32,295 nt of DNA from Acidobacteriota bacterium. GTDB taxonomy: Bacteria > Acidobacteriota > Vicinamibacteria > Fen-336. The position numbers and the translations under genes were made by a program. Each line of letters opens with the position of its first letter. The stretch's first letter is position 1. The DNA lies in assembly GCA_003223555.1 (NCBI GenBank), contig QHVM01000054.1, forward strand, positions 28,787 through 61,081. Direction: 5' to 3'. The notes under the pieces were generated by a model that saw only the letters and a program-made list of their open reading frames with translations, was not told the origin of the DNA and searched no databases. Positions 10,301-29,617 of the stretch are shown in pieces.

Positions 10301-10600
10301 CATCACGACGCAGCGCAGGTACTCGTTCTCGAGGTTCAGCGTGCGCCATCGCTGCACGGAGCGGTGGTCGGTGAGGTTCTCGCGGATCGTGTAGGGATAG
10401 TTGAAGCGGCGGGTCTGGAAAAGGTCGAAGGGCGGGTTGAAGTCGGGCAGGCCCTCCTCGTAGGTGGGGATGTCCATCGTCGCTTCCCACACCCGCACCG
10501 CCGCCGCCGGAGCCGGCGGCCGGGCGGCCGCCGCCTGGGCGGCGAAGGCCGGCCCAGCCACGGCGAGGAGCGCCACCGTCCGAGCGATGAGCGTCTTCAT
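7349..10600 (-). CDS. Exported DUF5107 protein with long C-terminal TPR region
   Basis: 1083 aa. ATG at 10600 overlaps the upstream stop (ATGA), with GGAAAGGA upstream. A signal peptide is evident (MKTLIARTVALLAVAGPAFA). Residues about 65-370 match DUF5107, a galactose-mutarotase-like beta-sandwich: LNLENEYLRCVVMPDLGGHLYNCVDK, GSWVALGIEFNFPVSHNW, HRFYWWSNAGVRVWD, with many Trp, Tyr, Glu and Asp as in a sugar-binding cleft. A short Ig-like linker follows (about 380-470). From about 485 to the end there are repeated Ala/Leu-rich helical pairs of TPR type (ATARYLLGSLYLSGGMAEAAQKEWEQARRL is one). DUF5107 has no firm biochemical role that I know; its company with lyase-like and GH-like genes suggests a carbohydrate-active or carbohydrate-binding periplasmic protein. 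Confidence 0.9.
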   Translation of the reverse strand: MKTLIARTVALLAVAGPAFAAQAAAARPPAPAAAVRVWEATMDIPTYEEGLPDFNPPFDLFQTRRFNYPYTIRENLTDHRSVQRWRTLNLENEYLRCVVMPDLGGHLYNCVDKANGADMFYAQTALKKAQVSYRGSWVALGIEFNFPVSHNWVTVSPVDWATTTNPDGSASVWIGNTDRVYGMRWRVGLTLRPGRSLLEQSIILENPTSLRHRFYWWSNAGVRVWDDSRIHYPQRFTASHGFRDVDTWPVNMAGVDLTRPGNHIYGPVSLFSHGSREPYMGVYHPRTRAGSVHYSSPMDAPAKKFWSWGADADGLDWRKALSDDDSAYVEVQAGIFRNQETYGFLQPQESVQFSEYWMPVREIGGITRANLDAVVYMTRGSTAGGAADLRVGVNVNRTVRGGTLRVKDGDAVAASIPLTLTPSGALTKTFPGLSAAQRYTVEVADGAGKVLLAHTEDQFDFTPAGEIKLGPQPAYEYPPPDKRTDEDFLRLGTDQELDGNLFGAWDTYQAGRKRFPGSFALQKAAGRLAVGLKRYDEAVALLGAAAERVTNDAELQHYLALAYARRGDERKARAEWEKAQHFRAFRAAALLELARLDASHSDAAKAGAGAMEVALLRRAGRLAEARERVRAWRRVDPARSSLRYEAQRLGASDPALWTHLAGDPDRVLNLAVAYMALGAWDDALDLLDRRYPKGAGVYSEPGAPAPQDDPEVAYYRGYCRQERGESGAADFAAASRMSTRYVFPSRPESFPVLRAALEADPQDATARYLLGSLYLSGGMAEAAQKEWEQARRLDRKIPVLHRNLGLTLLQVGHDARAALEVFLEGMGADPTNLDLYLGVDQAMSILGRPAAERIAALSRYPDRATMPPSLVQKLALALAEGGRADEGEALFAGRFFPRAEQGTNVRQVYLEVELQKALDRVRAGRAEEAVAIARGLGREVPGLSFTHDGLEAFLAAPRSQYLLGVVEAAAGHDAEAKEHWRKATEARDAFFRALPYAYFAARKLGGAGEAAWRKRLEDSLAQSEAFLAGGTNFPGAVAHAQGMTLRALGREEEAKERFQRALMLPDVRLAHFLSRRALEGAEP

Positions 10601-12240
10601 GAATCCGTCCTTTCCACGAGGGCCGCCGAGTCCTCGTCGAGCATCAGCGTCGCGTGGGGGTGGCGCCTCAGGACCGACGCGGGGCAGGCCCTCGTGACCG
10701 GGCCGTCAAGGGCGGCCCGGATGGCCGCCCGCTTGGCGGGACCGGGCACGACGGCGACCGCCCGCGGCACCGCCATGATGAAGGGAATGGTCAGGGAGAA
10801 GGCGGTGCGCGGCACGTCCTCCAGGCGGGGGAACGAGCCGTCGTGGACCTGCTGGCGGCGGCAGGGCTCGTCCAGCTCCACCACGCGGACGTCCGTCTTC
10901 TCGGCGAAGTCGCAGACCGGCGGGTCGATGAAGGCGAGGTGCCCGTTTTCGCCCACCCCGAGGATCGCCAGCCCCGGCCGCTCGCGCTGGAGGAGCGCGG
11001 CGTAGCGGGCGCACTCGCCGGCCTGGTCGGCGGCCTCGCCGTCCAGGCCGTGGAAGGCGCGCACCGGCACGTGGTCGAAGAGGCGGTCGGCGAGGAAGCG
11101 GCGGAAGGATGCCGGGTGGCGCGGCCCGATGCCCACGTACTCGTCGAGGTGGAAAGCGGTGAGCTTCCGCCACGGGAGGGTGGCCTCCACCCGCAGCGCC
11201 GCCAGCAGCTCGTTCTGCGACGGCGCGGAGGCGAAGACGACCGCCGCGCGGCCGTCGCGGTCGACCATCTGCCGGATGCGCGCCGACACAAGCGCGGCCG
11301 CCGCGCGTCCCACCGCCGGCCGGTCGGGATGGACCTGAACCGCCAGCCGGCCGCGGCCGAGATCCCGGGACGGAGCCTCCGCCGGGGTCGATTCGTCCTC
11401 GCCCCGCGCGCGGCGCAGGGCCGCCGCCGCCCAGCCGGCGAAGCGGGGCAGCGCCACTTCCGGCTCCTCTATCGCGGGATGCCACCGCTTCTCCCACTCG
11501 AAGGAGACGAAGCCCTCGTAGCCGGCGCGATGGAGGAGGGCCAGGACCTCGTCCGCCGGGAACTCACCCTCGCCAGGAAGCGCCGGCGTCCAGCCGCCGC
11601 CCGCGGCACCGCGCCCTTCCGCCCGCCGCAGGTCCTTCAGGTGGACGTGGCGGATGCGCGAGCCCAGCCGGCGCGGGCCCTCCGCCGGCGGCTCGCCCTG
11701 CTCGAACGCGTTGGCCGGATCCCACACGACACCCGCGCGGGGCGAGCGCACAAGCTCCAGCACCGACCGCGTCTGGGCGGCGCAGGCGAAATCGCCGTGC
11801 GACTCGAGCCACACCTCCACCCCCGTGTCGCGGGATTCTGCGGCCAGCGCCTCCATGGCCTCCACGATCCATTCCCGCGTCGCGGCGAGGTCGGCCCCCG
11901 GCTGCACCCGGTCGCCGAAGACCCGGATGCCCGGTGCCCCCAGCCGTGCCGCCAGGTCCAGGCTCCGCGCCGCCTCGTCGCGGGCGCGGGCGCGGACGGC
12001 GGGGTCCGGATCGTGGAAGAACGAGCGCGTGTCCACGCAGCTCACGGAGAGGCCGGCGTCGCGGAGCCGCTCCCGCGTCTGCCCGAGGCCGCTCCCGCTC
12101 AGCTCGGGGCGGCGCCAGAGCGCATCGTCGCCTTCCAGGAAGCGCAGCTCGACGCCGTCGTAGCCCTCGCGTCCGGCGACGTCGAGGACACGTTCCAGGC
12201 TCCAGGACGGGCATCCGAGGGTGGAGAAGCTCAGCTTCAC
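10597..12240 (-). CDS. Fusion: sugar isomerase/epimerase TIM barrel + glucosamine-6-phosphate deaminase (NagB-like)
   Basis: 547 aa from a GTG at 12240 (GTGA overlap with the dehydrogenase gene, GGAGCGG upstream). Residues 1-270 are an AP-endonuclease-2/xylose-isomerase-like TIM barrel with plausible metal ligands E146 (VWLESHGD), D174 (VWDPANAF), H200 (HVHLKD) and E248 (VSFEWEKRW). A 20-30 residue Glu/Ala/Arg linker follows. Residues about 295-547 are a complete NagB-type domain: AFHLDEYVGIGPRHPASF with D366 as the equivalent of the catalytic Asp72 of E. coli NagB, and GVGENGHLAFIDP with H434 as the His143 equivalent. The NEP motif is changed to IDP, so Glu148 is replaced by D439. Reaction inferred: isomerisation or epimerisation of one sugar and deaminating isomerisation of a hexosamine-6-phosphate. 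No stop or frameshift separates the halves. Confidence 0.9.
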   Translation of the reverse strand: MKLSFSTLGCPSWSLERVLDVAGREGYDGVELRFLEGDDALWRRPELSGSGLGQTRERLRDAGLSVSCVDTRSFFHDPDPAVRARARDEAARSLDLAARLGAPGIRVFGDRVQPGADLAATREWIVEAMEALAAESRDTGVEVWLESHGDFACAAQTRSVLELVRSPRAGVVWDPANAFEQGEPPAEGPRRLGSRIRHVHLKDLRRAEGRGAAGGGWTPALPGEGEFPADEVLALLHRAGYEGFVSFEWEKRWHPAIEEPEVALPRFAGWAAAALRRARGEDESTPAEAPSRDLGRGRLAVQVHPDRPAVGRAAAALVSARIRQMVDRDGRAAVVFASAPSQNELLAALRVEATLPWRKLTAFHLDEYVGIGPRHPASFRRFLADRLFDHVPVRAFHGLDGEAADQAGECARYAALLQRERPGLAILGVGENGHLAFIDPPVCDFAEKTDVRVVELDEPCRRQQVHDGSFPRLEDVPRTAFSLTIPFIMAVPRAVAVVPGPAKRAAIRAALDGPVTRACPASVLRRHPHATLMLDEDSAALVERTDS

Positions 12241-17297: not shown

Positions 17298-18587
17298 TCA
17301 GGTCCTCCGGTGGATCGCGAAGCTCTCCACCACGCGGCTGATGACGCCGTCGTCGGAGGGGGAGTCCGGGCGCCAGCCGGTGGCCAGGCAACGGAACAAG
17401 GCGAGGAGCTGGCCCACCAGCACGTCGAGGACGGGGACGTCGTCGTCCTCGACCGAGCCCAGTCCGGGCGCGTCGACCACGAGGTCGCCGGGCGAGACCA
17501 GGTCGGACGGCACGTCGGCCCCGACGAGCACCTTGCGCGCGCCCAGGTCCTTGCGGTTCAGCTCGCGCACCAGGTCCGCCTCGTAGGCCCGGACCACCTC
17601 GTCGGTGGACAGGAAACAGACGACGAGGGCCCCTTCGTCCACCGCGCACATCGGGCCGTGGCGGAGGCCGAGGTAGGTCTCGGGGAAGGTCATCACGCGC
17701 CCGGCCGTCATCTCCAGCATCTTCAGGGCCGCCTCCCGGGCGGAGCCGTAGCGTCCCCCGCTGCCGAGGTACACGGCCGAGCGAAACTCGCTGCGGGCGG
17801 CGGCGGCGAGGCCGTCGCCGTGGCGGAGGATCACCTGCGCGCCCAGGCCGGCCAGGCGGGACACCCGCTCCTCGTAGCCCGGCGGGTCACCGGTCAGGGC
17901 GAGGAACCGGGCGGCCAGCACCATGTTGGTGAAGCTGCTGGTCATGACGAGGCTGCGGTCGTGCGTCTTGTCGTCGAGGACCACCGTCGCCACCCGCTCG
18001 TCACCGGCGCCGCTCACGGCCAGCCGGCCATGGCGGTTGCACGTGATGACGAGGTGCCGGCAGTCGGGAACGGCCCGCAGGCCGTCGAGCACGGCCTCGC
18101 TCTCGGGGCTGTTGCCCGAGCGGGCGAACGAGACCACCAGGCACGGCGCCGCGCGCGGCAGGTGGCCGCGGGGATGGGTGAGCAGCTCGCCGGAGGCGAC
18201 CGCCTGCGCCGGGATGCCGAGGGCGCTCTGGAGCCCGGGGGCCAGGCATTCGCCCGCGTAGAGCGAGCTGCCGGAGCCGGTCAGGACCAGGAAGCCCGGA
18301 CGATCGCTGCCGGTGACGTGAGCGAGGACGGCGCGAAGCTCGCCGGCGCGGGGAGCGAGGTTGCGCGCCGTCTCCACCCAGGTGTACGGCTGCTGCGCGA
18401 TCTCCCGCAGCGTGTGGAGATAGCCGCGGCGCGTCTGCTCCTCGGGCGCCGCCGCGAGAAGCGCGCCCAGCTCGCCGCCAGCGCCGGCCACGAGGCGCAG
18501 CCAATCGTCGACCGAGGTCTGCAGGGCGCGTCCCACCTCGGCGGGGGCGGTCTCCAACGGCTTTCCCTTGTGGCGGAGTCGGTCCAA
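17298..18587 (-). CDS. agaS: SIS-domain sugar isomerase/deaminase, AgaS-like
   Basis: 429 aa from a TTG at 18587, with GGAAGGA six bases upstream; no better start is visible. Two SIS domains are present: LTGSGSSLYAGE at 102-113 with FARSGNSPES near 154, and YLGSGGRYGSAREAALKMLEM at 273-293 with FPETYLGLRHGPM following. MTSSFTNM near 215-222 is typical of AgaS, which converts galactosamine-6-phosphate to tagatose-6-phosphate and ammonia. The N-terminus is longer than in E. coli AgaS (about 384 aa). It is the first gene of the 13-gene minus-strand operon and is read away from the divergent aldolase gene. The nearby kinase and aldolase complete a plausible tagatose pathway. A related role (GlmS-like isomerase half) is less likely, as there is no glutaminase domain. 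Confidence 0.85.
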   Translation of the reverse strand: MDRLRHKGKPLETAPAEVGRALQTSVDDWLRLVAGAGGELGALLAAAPEEQTRRGYLHTLREIAQQPYTWVETARNLAPRAGELRAVLAHVTGSDRPGFLVLTGSGSSLYAGECLAPGLQSALGIPAQAVASGELLTHPRGHLPRAAPCLVVSFARSGNSPESEAVLDGLRAVPDCRHLVITCNRHGRLAVSGAGDERVATVVLDDKTHDRSLVMTSSFTNMVLAARFLALTGDPPGYEERVSRLAGLGAQVILRHGDGLAAAARSEFRSAVYLGSGGRYGSAREAALKMLEMTAGRVMTFPETYLGLRHGPMCAVDEGALVVCFLSTDEVVRAYEADLVRELNRKDLGARKVLVGADVPSDLVSPGDLVVDAPGLGSVEDDDVPVLDVLVGQLLALFRCLATGWRPDSPSDDGVISRVVESFAIHRRT

Positions 18588-18602: not shown

Positions 18603-18628
18603 CTCGCGTGGAATGAATCCACGCTTGC
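18603..18628. repeat. Palindromic element copy 1, between the divergent operons
   Basis: The core GCGTGGAATGAATCCACGC (18606-18624) has perfect 7-bp arms around a 5-nt centre. A second copy at 19735-19760 matches 21 of 26 positions; two of the five differences fall on paired positions and preserve pairing (T-A becomes C-G). This copy sits 16 nt upstream of the AgaS TTG and 20 nt upstream of the aldolase -35 box, so it could be an operator for both directions, a leader hairpin, or a REP-like repeat. Confidence 0.7.
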
Positions 18629-18647
18629 CGACGCCCGTGTCCCTGGG

Positions 18648-18676
18648 TTGACAGGGAGTCCGGTGGCGTCTATAAG
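18648..18676 (+). promoter_or_regulatory. Sigma70-type promoter of the aldolase operon
   Basis: TTGACA at 18648-18653, a 17-bp spacer, and TATAAG at 18671-18676: a perfect -35 and a 5/6 -10 in DNA of otherwise very high GC. The start point would fall near 18683, giving a leader of about 15 nt before the GTG at 18698. The palindromic element lies just upstream, and AGAAAAGG at 18683-18690 serves as ribosome-binding site. Confidence 0.8.
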
Positions 18677-18697
18677 TCGACGAGAAAAGGCAAGCGG

Positions 18698-19636
18698 GTG
18701 AAGGCTATCGAAACCAAACGAAAGAGTCAACCCCTTCGGGTATCCGAGCCCGGCGCCGCCCTCGCCCACCTCTCCCTCTCCCACGGCAAGCGAGTGCGGC
18801 TGTGGCGGATGCTGTACGCCCATGGTCCGGCCAACGGAACGCTGCTCGTCCTGCCCCTCGACCAGGGGCTCGAGCACGGCCCGGCCGACTTCTTCCCCAA
18901 CCCCGCCGCGCTCGACCCGGACTTCCAGTTCCGGCTCGCGCTCGAGGGTGGTTATTCGGCGATCGCCCTCGGCGTGGGCCTGGCCGAGAAGTACATGCGC
19001 GAGTACGCCGGACGCGTGCCGCTCATCCTGAAGCTGAACGGCAAGACGAACATCCCGGACGACGAGGAAGCGGTCTCGCCGCTCGCTGCCGACGTGGAGG
19101 ACGCGGTGCGCCTGGGGGCGGACGCGGTGGGCTACACGCTCTACGTGGGCTCGCCGCGCCAGGACGACGAGATCCGCCAGCTCCGCGGCGTGCGCAAGGA
19201 CTGCGAGCGGCTCGGCATGCCCCTCGTCATGTGGGCCTATCCCCGCGGACGCGCGGTGGAGGCCAAGGGCGGCAAGGGCACGCTCTTCGCCCAGGACTAC
19301 GCCGCCCGGGTGGCCGAGGAGCTGGGGGCCGACCTGGCCAAGCTCCACGAGCCGAACGAGGACGACGAGCGCTCGCCCGCCGCGTACCGCGCGCTGCGCG
19401 AGCCGCCCCCGGCGCGGCTGCGCCGGGTTGTGCGATCGGCGGGCCGGGTCATGGTCCTCTTCTCCGGAGGGGTGAAGCAGGACGACGACGAGGCCGTGCT
19501 GAGGAAGGTGAAGCTGTACATGGAGTGCGGCGCGGCCGGGGTGATGTTCGGCCGGAACATGTGGCTGCGCTCGTTCGACCACGCGCTCGAGCTGACTCGC
19601 CAGGTGCACCGCATCATGGGCCGTCATCCCCGCTGA
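18698..19636 (+). CDS. fbaB: Class I fructose/tagatose-bisphosphate aldolase, FbaB-type
   Basis: 312 aa from the GTG at 18698, with AAAAGG upstream and a good promoter. The protein follows E. coli FbaB closely: LPLDQGLEHGPADFFPNPAA at 52-71, VPLILKLNGK at 107-116, ADAVGYTLYVGS at 141-152, VMWAYPRG near 177-184, and a lysine in ADLAKLHEPN (K215) at the Schiff-base position. FLFSGG-like VLFSGGVK near 253-260 forms the phosphate site. It cleaves a ketose-1,6-bisphosphate into dihydroxyacetone phosphate and glyceraldehyde-3-phosphate. Beside AgaS- and LacC-like genes, tagatose-1,6-bisphosphate is a likely natural substrate. The amidohydrolase follows 19 nt downstream in the same operon. Confidence 0.88.
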   Translation: MKAIETKRKSQPLRVSEPGAALAHLSLSHGKRVRLWRMLYAHGPANGTLLVLPLDQGLEHGPADFFPNPAALDPDFQFRLALEGGYSAIALGVGLAEKYMREYAGRVPLILKLNGKTNIPDDEEAVSPLAADVEDAVRLGADAVGYTLYVGSPRQDDEIRQLRGVRKDCERLGMPLVMWAYPRGRAVEAKGGKGTLFAQDYAARVAEELGADLAKLHEPNEDDERSPAAYRALREPPPARLRRVVRSAGRVMVLFSGGVKQDDDEAVLRKVKLYMECGAAGVMFGRNMWLRSFDHALELTRQVHRIMGRHPR

Positions 19637-19655
19637 CTCCCGAGGAGGACCCGAG

Positions 19656-20909
19656 ATGAGCATCAACCGCAGGCAGTGGCTGGCTCGCCTCGCCGCCGGT
19701 GGCGCCGGCCTGCTGCTTCCCTCGCGTTCTTTCGCTCGCGCGGAGTCAATCCGCGCTCGCTCATCGGGCGGGGGGGCCGCTCCTGCGCTGCGACCGGAAG
19801 CGCCGCCGTCTCCGTCCCCGAGGCCGGCCGGCTGCCCTCTCCCGCTGGCGGACTTCCAGCCCCGGAGCATGCTCCACGTGGCCGAGCACAAGGTCCTGCG
19901 CGCGCGCTTCCCCGTGATCGACATCCACACCCACCTCGGTTGGTCGAAGGGCGAGGAGGTCAGCTTCTTGGCCACGCCGGCCGAGCTTCTCCCGGTGATG
20001 GACGGCAAGAACGTCCGCACCATGGTGAACCTGACCGGCGGCAGCGGGGCGGGGCTCGCCCAGTCCATCCGCACCTTCGAAGGCGCGGCGCCGGGGCGCT
20101 TCCTGACGTTCACCGAGCCGTCGTGGCACCGGGTCGCCCAGCCCGGCTACGCCCAGTGGCAGGCCGACGAGATCGAGCGCGCCAAGAGGGCGGGGGCCAG
20201 GGGCCTCAAGGTCTTGAAGACCCTCGGCCTGTTCCTGCGCGAGAACGGGACCACCGGCTCGCTGGTGAAGATCGACGACCCGCGGTTCGACCCGATGTGG
20301 GACGCGTGCGGCCGGCTGGGCCTGCCGGTGGCCATCCACGTCTCGGACCCGGAGGCGTTCTTCACGCCCATCGACCGCTTCAACGAGCGCTACGACGAGC
20401 TGGGGAACCATCCCGACTGGTCGTTCTACGACCGCGACTTCCCGAGCAACGCGGAGCTGCTCGAGGCGCGCAACCGCATGTTCGCCCGCCACCCGAACAC
20501 CCGGTTCATCGTGCTCCACGTCGGCAACAACGCCGAGAACCTCGGCTTCGTGTCCGAGAACCTCGACCGCTTCCCGAACACCGTGGTCGACATCGCCGCC
20601 CGCATCGGCGAGCTGGGCCGCCAGCCGCGCACCGCGCGGCGGTTCGTCGACAAGTACCAGGACCGGGTGCTCTTCGGCACCGACGCCGTGCCCCCGCCCG
20701 ACGGCGACAAGTACCCGCAGCAGGTCTTCAAGGACGAGCTGTACGAGATCTACTACCGCTTCCTGGAAAGCGAGGACGAATACTTCGACTACGCGCCGGC
20801 GGCGGTGCCGCCCCAGGGCCGGTGGCGCATCTACGGGCTCGGCCTGCCGGAGACGATCCTCGAGAAGGTCTACCACGACAACGCGGCCCGCCTCCTCGGT
20901 CTGGCGTGA
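19656..20909 (+). CDS. Amidohydrolase-2 family protein with Tat-like signal
   Basis: 417 aa, ATG at 19656 after a strong GAGGAGG. The start MSINRRQWLARLAAGGAGLLL has a twin Arg followed by a hydrophobic stretch, suggesting Tat export. Residues about 28-62 are a low-complexity Arg/Ser/Gly/Pro linker that contains the second palindromic element and a G7 tract. The catalytic barrel begins with the metal motif VIDIHTHLGW, continues with AIHVSD and IVLHVGNNAEN (further His ligands), and has FGTDAV (metal-binding Asp) near residue 346. The family (Amidohydro_2, PF04909) includes decarboxylases and lactone hydrolases such as LigI-type enzymes. It is not a NagA-type N-acetylhexosamine deacetylase. 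Substrate unknown; a sugar lactone would suit the context. The GNAT start overlaps its stop. Confidence 0.9.
   Translation: MSINRRQWLARLAAGGAGLLLPSRSFARAESIRARSSGGGAAPALRPEAPPSPSPRPAGCPLPLADFQPRSMLHVAEHKVLRARFPVIDIHTHLGWSKGEEVSFLATPAELLPVMDGKNVRTMVNLTGGSGAGLAQSIRTFEGAAPGRFLTFTEPSWHRVAQPGYAQWQADEIERAKRAGARGLKVLKTLGLFLRENGTTGSLVKIDDPRFDPMWDACGRLGLPVAIHVSDPEAFFTPIDRFNERYDELGNHPDWSFYDRDFPSNAELLEARNRMFARHPNTRFIVLHVGNNAENLGFVSENLDRFPNTVVDIAARIGELGRQPRTARRFVDKYQDRVLFGTDAVPPPDGDKYPQQVFKDELYEIYYRFLESEDEYFDYAPAAVPPQGRWRIYGLGLPETILEKVYHDNAARLLGLA
19735..19760. repeat. Palindromic element copy 2, inside the amidohydrolase gene
   Basis: Core GCGCGGAGTCAATCCGCGC (19738-19756), with 7-bp perfect arms and a 5-nt centre. 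It shares 21 of 26 bases with the intergenic copy at 18603-18628, including a compensatory change in the stem. It codes for the residues following the signal peptide (about codons 27-35, ARAESIRAR), in a region that is not conserved catalytic sequence. This could be an in-frame inserted repeat or an intragenic operator. Confidence 0.65.
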
Positions 20910-28569: not shown

Positions 28570-29617
28570 GCTGCTGCGCGCCGCGCTCCTGCGCGGCCTG
28601 GTGATCCCCGCCCATCCCCTCGCGCTCACCGCCGAGCGGAAGCTCGACGAGCGCCGGCAGCTCGCCCTCACCCGCTACTACTGCGCCGCCCGCGCGGGCG
28701 GCGTCGCGGTGGGCGTGCACACCACGCAGTTCGCCATCCGGGATGCGAAGGTGGGGCTGCTGGAGCCGGTGCTGCGCCTGGCGATGGGCGCCGTTCGGCG
28801 TCACGAAGAAGCGACCGGCACGCGGCTCGTCACGGTGGCCGGGGTCTGCGGGGCGACGCGGCAGGCGGTGGCGGAGGCGGAGCTGGCCCGCGCGCTGGGA
28901 TACGACCTGGGCCTGCTCAGCCTGGGGGCGCTGCCCGACGCCACGAACGAAGAGCTGGTCGCCCACTGCCAGCGGGTGGCGGAGGTATTGCCGCTCTTCG
29001 GCTTCTATCTCCAGCCGGCGGTGGGCGGGCGCGTGCTGGGCTACGGCTTCTGGCGCGCGCTGTTGGAGCTGCCGGAGCTGGCCGCGATCAAGGTCGCGCC
29101 CTTCGACCGCTACCGGACGCTCGAGGTGGCCCGGGCGCTCGCCGACGCCGGGCGGGGCGACGAGGTCGCCCTCTACACCGGCAACGACGACAGCATCGTG
29201 GCCGACCTCCTCACCGCCTTCCCGGCCGGGACCGGCGGCCGCGAGCCGGCGGTGCGCTTCGCCGGCGGGCTGCTCGGGCAATGGGCGGTGTGGACGAGCC
29301 GGGCCGTGGAGCTGCTGGAGCGCGCGCGCGAGTGCCGGACCGCGGGACGGGGCGCCCTGGAGCTTCTGGCCGAAGGCGCCCAGCTCACCGACGCGAACGG
29401 GGCGATCTTCGACACGCGGCACGGCTTCGCCGGCTGCATCCCGGGCATCCACGAGGTGCTGCGCGGCCAGGGCCTGCTCGCGGGGCGATGGTGCCTCGAT
29501 CCGGACGAGGAGCTGTCGCCGGGCCAGCTCGAGGAGATCGAGCGCGTGCGCGCCGCCTACCCGCGGCTGGCCGACGACGCCTTCGTGGCCGAGAACCGGG
29601 AACGATGGCTGGCCTGA
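28556..29617 (+). CDS. DapA/NanA-family aldolase (dihydrodipicolinate synthase family)
   Basis: 353 aa from the ATG at 28556, overlapping the epimerase-like gene by 14 nt; GAGCGGG upstream. The TIM-barrel family features are present: AGGVAVGVHTTQF at 47-59 in place of the canonical GGTTGE loop, FGFYLQPAVGG at 148-158 with Y151 as the catalytic Tyr candidate, and ELAAIKVAPFDRYRTL with K179 as Schiff-base lysine. It is longer than typical DapA (about 290-300 aa), with an extra C-terminal helical part. Family members split or condense pyruvate with aldehydes: lysine synthesis, N-acetylneuraminate or 2-keto-3-deoxy-sugar-acid cleavage. In a sugar operon, with a divergent pyruvate loop, 2-keto-3-deoxy acid cleavage is the better guess than lysine synthesis. 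Confidence 0.9.
   Translation: MAVSELLRAALLRGLVIPAHPLALTAERKLDERRQLALTRYYCAARAGGVAVGVHTTQFAIRDAKVGLLEPVLRLAMGAVRRHEEATGTRLVTVAGVCGATRQAVAEAELARALGYDLGLLSLGALPDATNEELVAHCQRVAEVLPLFGFYLQPAVGGRVLGYGFWRALLELPELAAIKVAPFDRYRTLEVARALADAGRGDEVALYTGNDDSIVADLLTAFPAGTGGREPAVRFAGGLLGQWAVWTSRAVELLERARECRTAGRGALELLAEGAQLTDANGAIFDTRHGFAGCIPGIHEVLRGQGLLAGRWCLDPDEELSPGQLEEIERVRAAYPRLADDAFVAENRERWLA

Follow-up and report, generated by a model that had tools for sequence, protein, structure and literature searches.

Two palindromes beside an aldolase gene as probable members of a dispersed hairpin repeat family in one Acidobacteriota family

The window analysed here, a 32,295-nt stretch of DNA from an Acidobacteriota bacterium, carries two similar palindromes, separated by 1.1 kb, around a single transcription unit. 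The locus raises the question of what such a pair represents, and an earlier note on this DNA offered three alternatives: a mobile REP-like element, an RNA hairpin, or an operator pair that could loop the DNA over 1.1 kb. As shown below, the first is favored by copies that are dispersed, lineage-restricted, intergenic and present or absent between relatives, and the looping operator pair fails. Both palindromes very probably belong to a repeat family. The fuller proposal, also probable, is that this family is REP/MITE-like, dispersed and non-autonomous. Its less certain part is a spread via a trans-acting factor that would read the hairpin apex.

The two palindromes and their neighboring genes

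The sequence at positions 18603–18628 (CTCGCGTGGAATGAATCCACGCTTGC, copy 1, plus strand) and that at positions 19735–19760 (CTCGCGCGGAGTCAATCCGCGCTCGC, copy 2, plus strand) show an identity of 21/26, in agreement with the 21 positions first reported for this 26-bp pair. The perfect 7-bp arms and 5-nt centers described there are also found. In copy 1 the stem is formed by positions 18606–18612 and 18618–18624 with the loop ATGAA (18613–18617), and in copy 2 by positions 19738–19744 and 19750–19756 with the loop GTCAA (19745–19749). The compensatory stem change is present as well, i.e. the T18609–A18621 pair of copy 1 is C19741–G19753 in copy 2. The pattern GCGYGGA-N5-TCCRCGC has two exact matches in the window where 0.02 are expected, and none of 100 shuffles reaches two. 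The covariance model introduced below matches copy 1 with 26.3 bits and copy 2 with 34.4 bits. An Rfam scan of the window and nine loci gave no element above the gathering score, the sole match being a tRNA.

Copy 1 is a lone short core hairpin. It sits, as had been stated, in the intergenic region between two divergent genes and is upstream of both: 28 bp from the start of a gene for an AgaS-type SIS-domain sugar isomerase (17298–18587, minus strand; Pfam SIS, with TIGR02815 below cut-off) and 83 bp from the gene for a DeoC/FbaB-type class I aldolase (18698–19636, plus strand; Pfam DeoC 1.1e-36, with NF006704 below cut-off). A likely aldolase promoter, TTGACA-17-TATAAG (18648–18676, plus strand), is seen in the sequence downstream of copy 1; the promoter scan did not list it because a T is required there as the sixth base of the −10 box.

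Copy 2 lies within a gene for a Tat-signal amidohydrolase (19656–20909, plus strand; Pfam Amidohydro_2 1.2e-27), the gene in which it had been placed. It is in the reading frame just after the Tat signal peptide, and the N-terminus reads MSINRRQWLARLAAGGAGLLLP. Comparison with other copies of subfamily A (see below) gives an approximate full extent of 19728–19778 (plus strand), with the form TCTTTCGCTCGCGC-core-GCGCTCGCTCATCGGGCGGGGGGGCC. Only the left half of its second, G-rich hairpin remains, i.e. this subfamily-A element is truncated there.

Elsewhere in the window, at positions 10597–12240, a single open reading frame fuses a xylose-isomerase-like TIM barrel (AP_endonuc_2) with a glucosamine-6-phosphate deaminase-like domain. 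It sits in an apparent sugar catabolic cluster.

Copy number, hairpin structure and placement

The window spans positions 28787–61081 of contig C75 in genome G000, a 5.39-Mb draft that is 98% complete. In the earlier note, many dispersed copies of GCGYGGA-N5-TCCRCGC were taken as the mark of a REP-like family. The pattern occurs at 21 dispersed places in the whole genome and the reversed pattern at none; its frequency is therefore far above chance. The relaxed core GGA-RTGAA-TCC gives about 145 matches (71 + 74) against one for the control, and inspection of the copies shows that the outer arms differ while GGA-RTGAA-TCC persists. A covariance model was built from 70 distinct hairpins and applied at E ≤ 0.01, the number of scored candidates being capped at 150 for each genome. 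It has at least 139 matches in G000 and at least 133 in G001, a genome of the same genus. In the broad sense of the term, these are the size and number of a REP, an imperfect palindrome of 20–40 bp with many copies per genome.

The stems covary, with a score of 0.391 for the real alignment; shuffled sequences give 0.144 and slid partners no more than 0.158. Ten of the 13 stem pairs change on both sides and the three apical pairs are invariant in this set, which was selected for the core. As the copies were picked by core plus partial pairing, the apical pairs are fixed by construction and pairing is somewhat inflated. Where a perfect 8-bp stem closes a 5-nt loop in the G000 loci retrieved, the loop is far more often GTGAA or ATGAA than any other sequence; this ranking is an illustration and not a test because the loci were fetched for holding the core. 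Compensated replacement extends even to the apical G-C pairs, as seen in variants with GAAGTGAATTC and CGAGTGAATCG. One copy common to G000 and G001 (L111/L158) differs at two compensated stem pairs and one loop base, with no pair broken. Selection on the dyad, which the earlier note had argued for, is thus upheld at the level of the family by covariation and at this one orthologous site.

There are at least five composite subfamilies. In subfamily A the core hairpin is followed by TC(A/T)T(C/T)GAG and a G6/C6 hairpin; in B the G6/C6 hairpin comes first and the core after it, and some members have a second upstream RTGAA hairpin. Subfamily C is a ~110-bp element in which an outer stem of the GCGGCGCG type encloses the core hairpin, D consists of a GCGCGCATTCGCGC hairpin plus the core, and E has the core enclosed by an outer stem. 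A TCATC[GA]AG-like motif is enriched near the core, but this depends on the subfamily. Since the subfamilies are heterogeneous, a single mechanism for all copies is an assumption. In B2 copies (L122, L135, L115 and others) the second hairpin, GGCGGCGAAGTGAATTCGCCGCC, lies ~45 nt 5′ of the core; it has the same RTGAA apex, and a compensated A-T replaces a stem G-C.

Placement was analyzed in 74 genome stretches with a simple home-made codon-based gene finder. Here 103 of 116 copies are intergenic (about 89%), 11 are in predicted CDS and two are at edges, although about 88–89% of the DNA, or of random positions, is coding. The repeats are thus mostly extragenic, as are REPs in the broad sense. 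Copy 2 was tallied as intergenic because the amidohydrolase start assigned by the gene finder was too far downstream; it is really in frame. The intergenic copies lie between co-directional (58), convergent (28) and divergent (17) gene pairs. Neighboring copies no more than 300 bp apart are direct, i.e. on the same strand, in 28 of 29 cases and inverted in one, and head-to-tail arrays are frequent. Members of subfamilies B–E are mostly downstream of genes (small counts). Copies of subfamily A (e.g. L011, L015, L016, L020, L021, L023, L099) are mostly antisense to the next gene and tend to lie in its 5′ region, and also occur in divergent regions; the counts are small here as well.

These data bear on the possibility that the sequences are functional RNA hairpins, transcribed with their neighbors mostly at 3′ ends, with an RNA-binding protein or RNase that would read the RUGAA loop and set mRNA stability or termination, mobility being secondary. 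Stem covariation, the convergent or downstream position of subfamilies B–E and the unbroken compensated pairs of L111/L158 speak for this explanation. Against it stand subfamily A, where none of 17 clusters is convergent, the lack of a terminator-like T-run near copy 1, and orthologous sites that often have no copy. The RNA explanation is considered unlikely.

Distribution among relatives and the search for a mobilizing enzyme

Within the same family, model matches number 44, 21 and 8 in the genomes of genus g6, 25 in G010, 19 in G008, 12 in G003, 6 in G007 and 1 in G009, and there are none in G002, G004, G005 and G012. Among 297 genomes across the phylum, none outside the family has more than 16 core matches, and most of the extra-family matches listed are without paired arms. 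The elements are restricted to a single family of this phylum.

The closest aldolase loci come from soil Acidobacteria MAGs, AA35 (92%) and AA29 (77%). In a comparison of 1300 bases the AA35 locus is identical to that of G001; the AA29 locus matches that of G010 at the stretches compared. The dyad at site 1 is absent in four relatives from the same family (G001, G010, G012 and G009), all of which keep the aldolase and the TTGACA and TATAAA-like boxes. The dyad at site 2 is also absent in these relatives apart from G009, which informs site 1 only because no Tat amidohydrolase was seen in its stretch. The amidohydrolase of G000 is a net 13 codons longer than its G001 orthologue, and copy 2 is an in-frame insertion. 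No tested relative has the dyads, so parsimony favors a gain of both copies in the lineage of G000. Copy 1 would have landed upstream of a pre-existing aldolase promoter to which it does not belong. Copy 2 would have landed in what may be a tolerant linker after the Tat signal and been retained because the frame was kept.

These comparisons decide against the idea that a local sugar-gene regulator uses the two dyads as operators and loops the DNA between 18.6 and 19.7 kb. In favor of it are the similarity of the dyads, their spacing of 1.1 kb around a single transcription unit and the likely promoter close downstream of the first. An operator would, however, be expected to persist at orthologous promoters and to be linked to a regulon, and the four relatives have the same aldolase and promoter with neither dyad (G009 counting for site 1 only). 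A set of 63 homologous aldolase loci likewise has no confident copy, and sugar operons are not where the copies concentrate. More than 100 copies lie elsewhere in the genome, the arms vary freely, and no Pfam family has more than three members among 140 genes neighboring the copies. The operator explanation is therefore extremely unlikely.

The repeat family shows insertion polymorphism between close relatives, as do MITEs. An insert of about 150 bp right after a stop codon in G001 is missing in G000 (L170/L013), further presence/absence sites are L023/L190, L140/L174 and L090/L178, and the array at L125/L181 has three units in one genome and one in the other. In orthologous genes of two species, copies of opposite orientation are present at the same spot (L141 2525 and L200 2011).

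Clear flanking direct repeats are found at only 3 of 87 clusters, with lengths of 21, 49 and 71 bp; target-site duplications are thus not a general feature. Long flanking duplications are more frequent than at random positions, yet not general. The copies concerned are bracketed by 71 bp at L023 1405–1636, 49 bp at L101 2359–2578 and 21 bp at L097 2488–2579. These duplications derive from the adjoining gene ends, unlike ordinary short target-site duplications. No autonomous transposon that shares terminal inverted repeats with the elements was identified.

Several candidate movers were rejected. Y1_Tnp (RAYT/IS200-type) was sought in 14 genomes of the family and is not found in G000, G001, G006, G010, G011 and G013, nor in genus g6. 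It is thus absent where the elements are abundant, and the two family members that carry it (G004 and G012) have no model matches. As the genomes are incomplete drafts, the absence of RAYT is strong but not final. Reverse transcriptase is absent from G000 and does not track the elements; IS110 is present in single copies that show no correlation with element number.

The elements are numerous and mostly intergenic, often stand head to tail, pair an invariant apex with covarying stems, and show insertion differences between relatives. The free variation of the stems together with a fixed apex fits recognition of the apex by a trans-acting factor. Such a factor would recognize the apex (A-RTGAA-T, closed by the stem), probably on single-stranded DNA, and would insert copies in trans at gene ends, which would spread the elements. 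Judged from the conservation of the apex, its recognition by a mobilizing factor has about an even chance of being correct. A broader and more tentative proposal, possible but doubtful, is that the elements form a REP-like superfamily defined by the apex A-RTGAA-T, with a mover neither of the RAYT/IS200 type nor based on reverse transcriptase. This mover would read the apex of single-stranded hairpins, tolerate nearly any stem and build multi-hairpin elements, all in one soil Acidobacteriota family.

Comparison with known repeat families

The BOX and RUP repeats of pneumococcus are modular, intergenic and stem-loop forming, with a variable number of internal units. The Acidobacteriota elements share all of these properties, but their sequence is unrelated and a related IS transposase was not found for them. 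Palindromic elements of Rickettsia are tolerated as in-frame insertions within protein genes. Copy 2 is likewise a palindrome inserted in frame in a protein gene; here, however, only a minority of copies is coding, and the phylum and the sequence are different. BOX and RUP are the subject of PMC3049150, and the Rickettsia elements are mentioned in PMC3733652. A prior description of the present family as an Acidobacteria REP or MITE was not found in the open-access literature searched, which need not mean that none exists; matches to the core sequence there are unrelated papers that contain primers.

The closest likeness is to REPs (PMC3733652, PMC2817692), which are also short palindromes with more than 100 copies, mostly intergenic and enriched at convergent sites, with compensated stems and some in-frame intragenic copies. 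The elements could be drifted CGTC REPs or drifted members of the RAYT-mobilized GTAG superfamily. They match the REPs of PMC3733652 in size, in dispersal, in their placement between genes, convergent ones included, and in having in-frame intragenic copies, and the Pseudomonas entomophila REP Pent1 (PMC2817692) has a similar apex, GGATTCATCC. A GTAG-type foot is nevertheless not found, with just 17 of 116 copies showing GTAG or CTAC 45 nt or less from the core, and the draft genomes G000, G001, G006, G010, G011 and G013 have no cognate RAYT. Inspection of the alignment and copies showed no unpaired CGTC tag, CCA tail or 8–9 bp stem whose first two positions are A-T; CGTC is present in subfamily C, but within a paired stem. 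CGTC REPs have an unpaired tag and form mostly inverted dimers (PMC3733652), against 28 direct pairs and one inverted pair of neighbors here. Descent from either superfamily is very unlikely.

In these elements it is the apex A-RTGAA-T that is conserved, whereas in REPs it is the unpaired foot. Arrays are direct and not inverted, multi-hairpin composites occur, and the element-rich genomes checked have no RAYT. With a REP-like location and copy number, but without the foot motifs or dimer orientation of the GTAG and CGTC superfamilies, the family is classed as a REP/MITE variant that belongs to neither. A palindrome pair that resembles a looping operator appears to be part of a genome-wide repeat family. 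This adds, from a lineage that lacks the usual REP transposase, a set of hairpins whose apex is fixed and whose stems are free. For CGTC REPs a transposase is likewise not known (PMC3733652). With a second orphan family, whose insertions differ at many sites between sequenced relatives, it becomes easier to test what moves such repeats.
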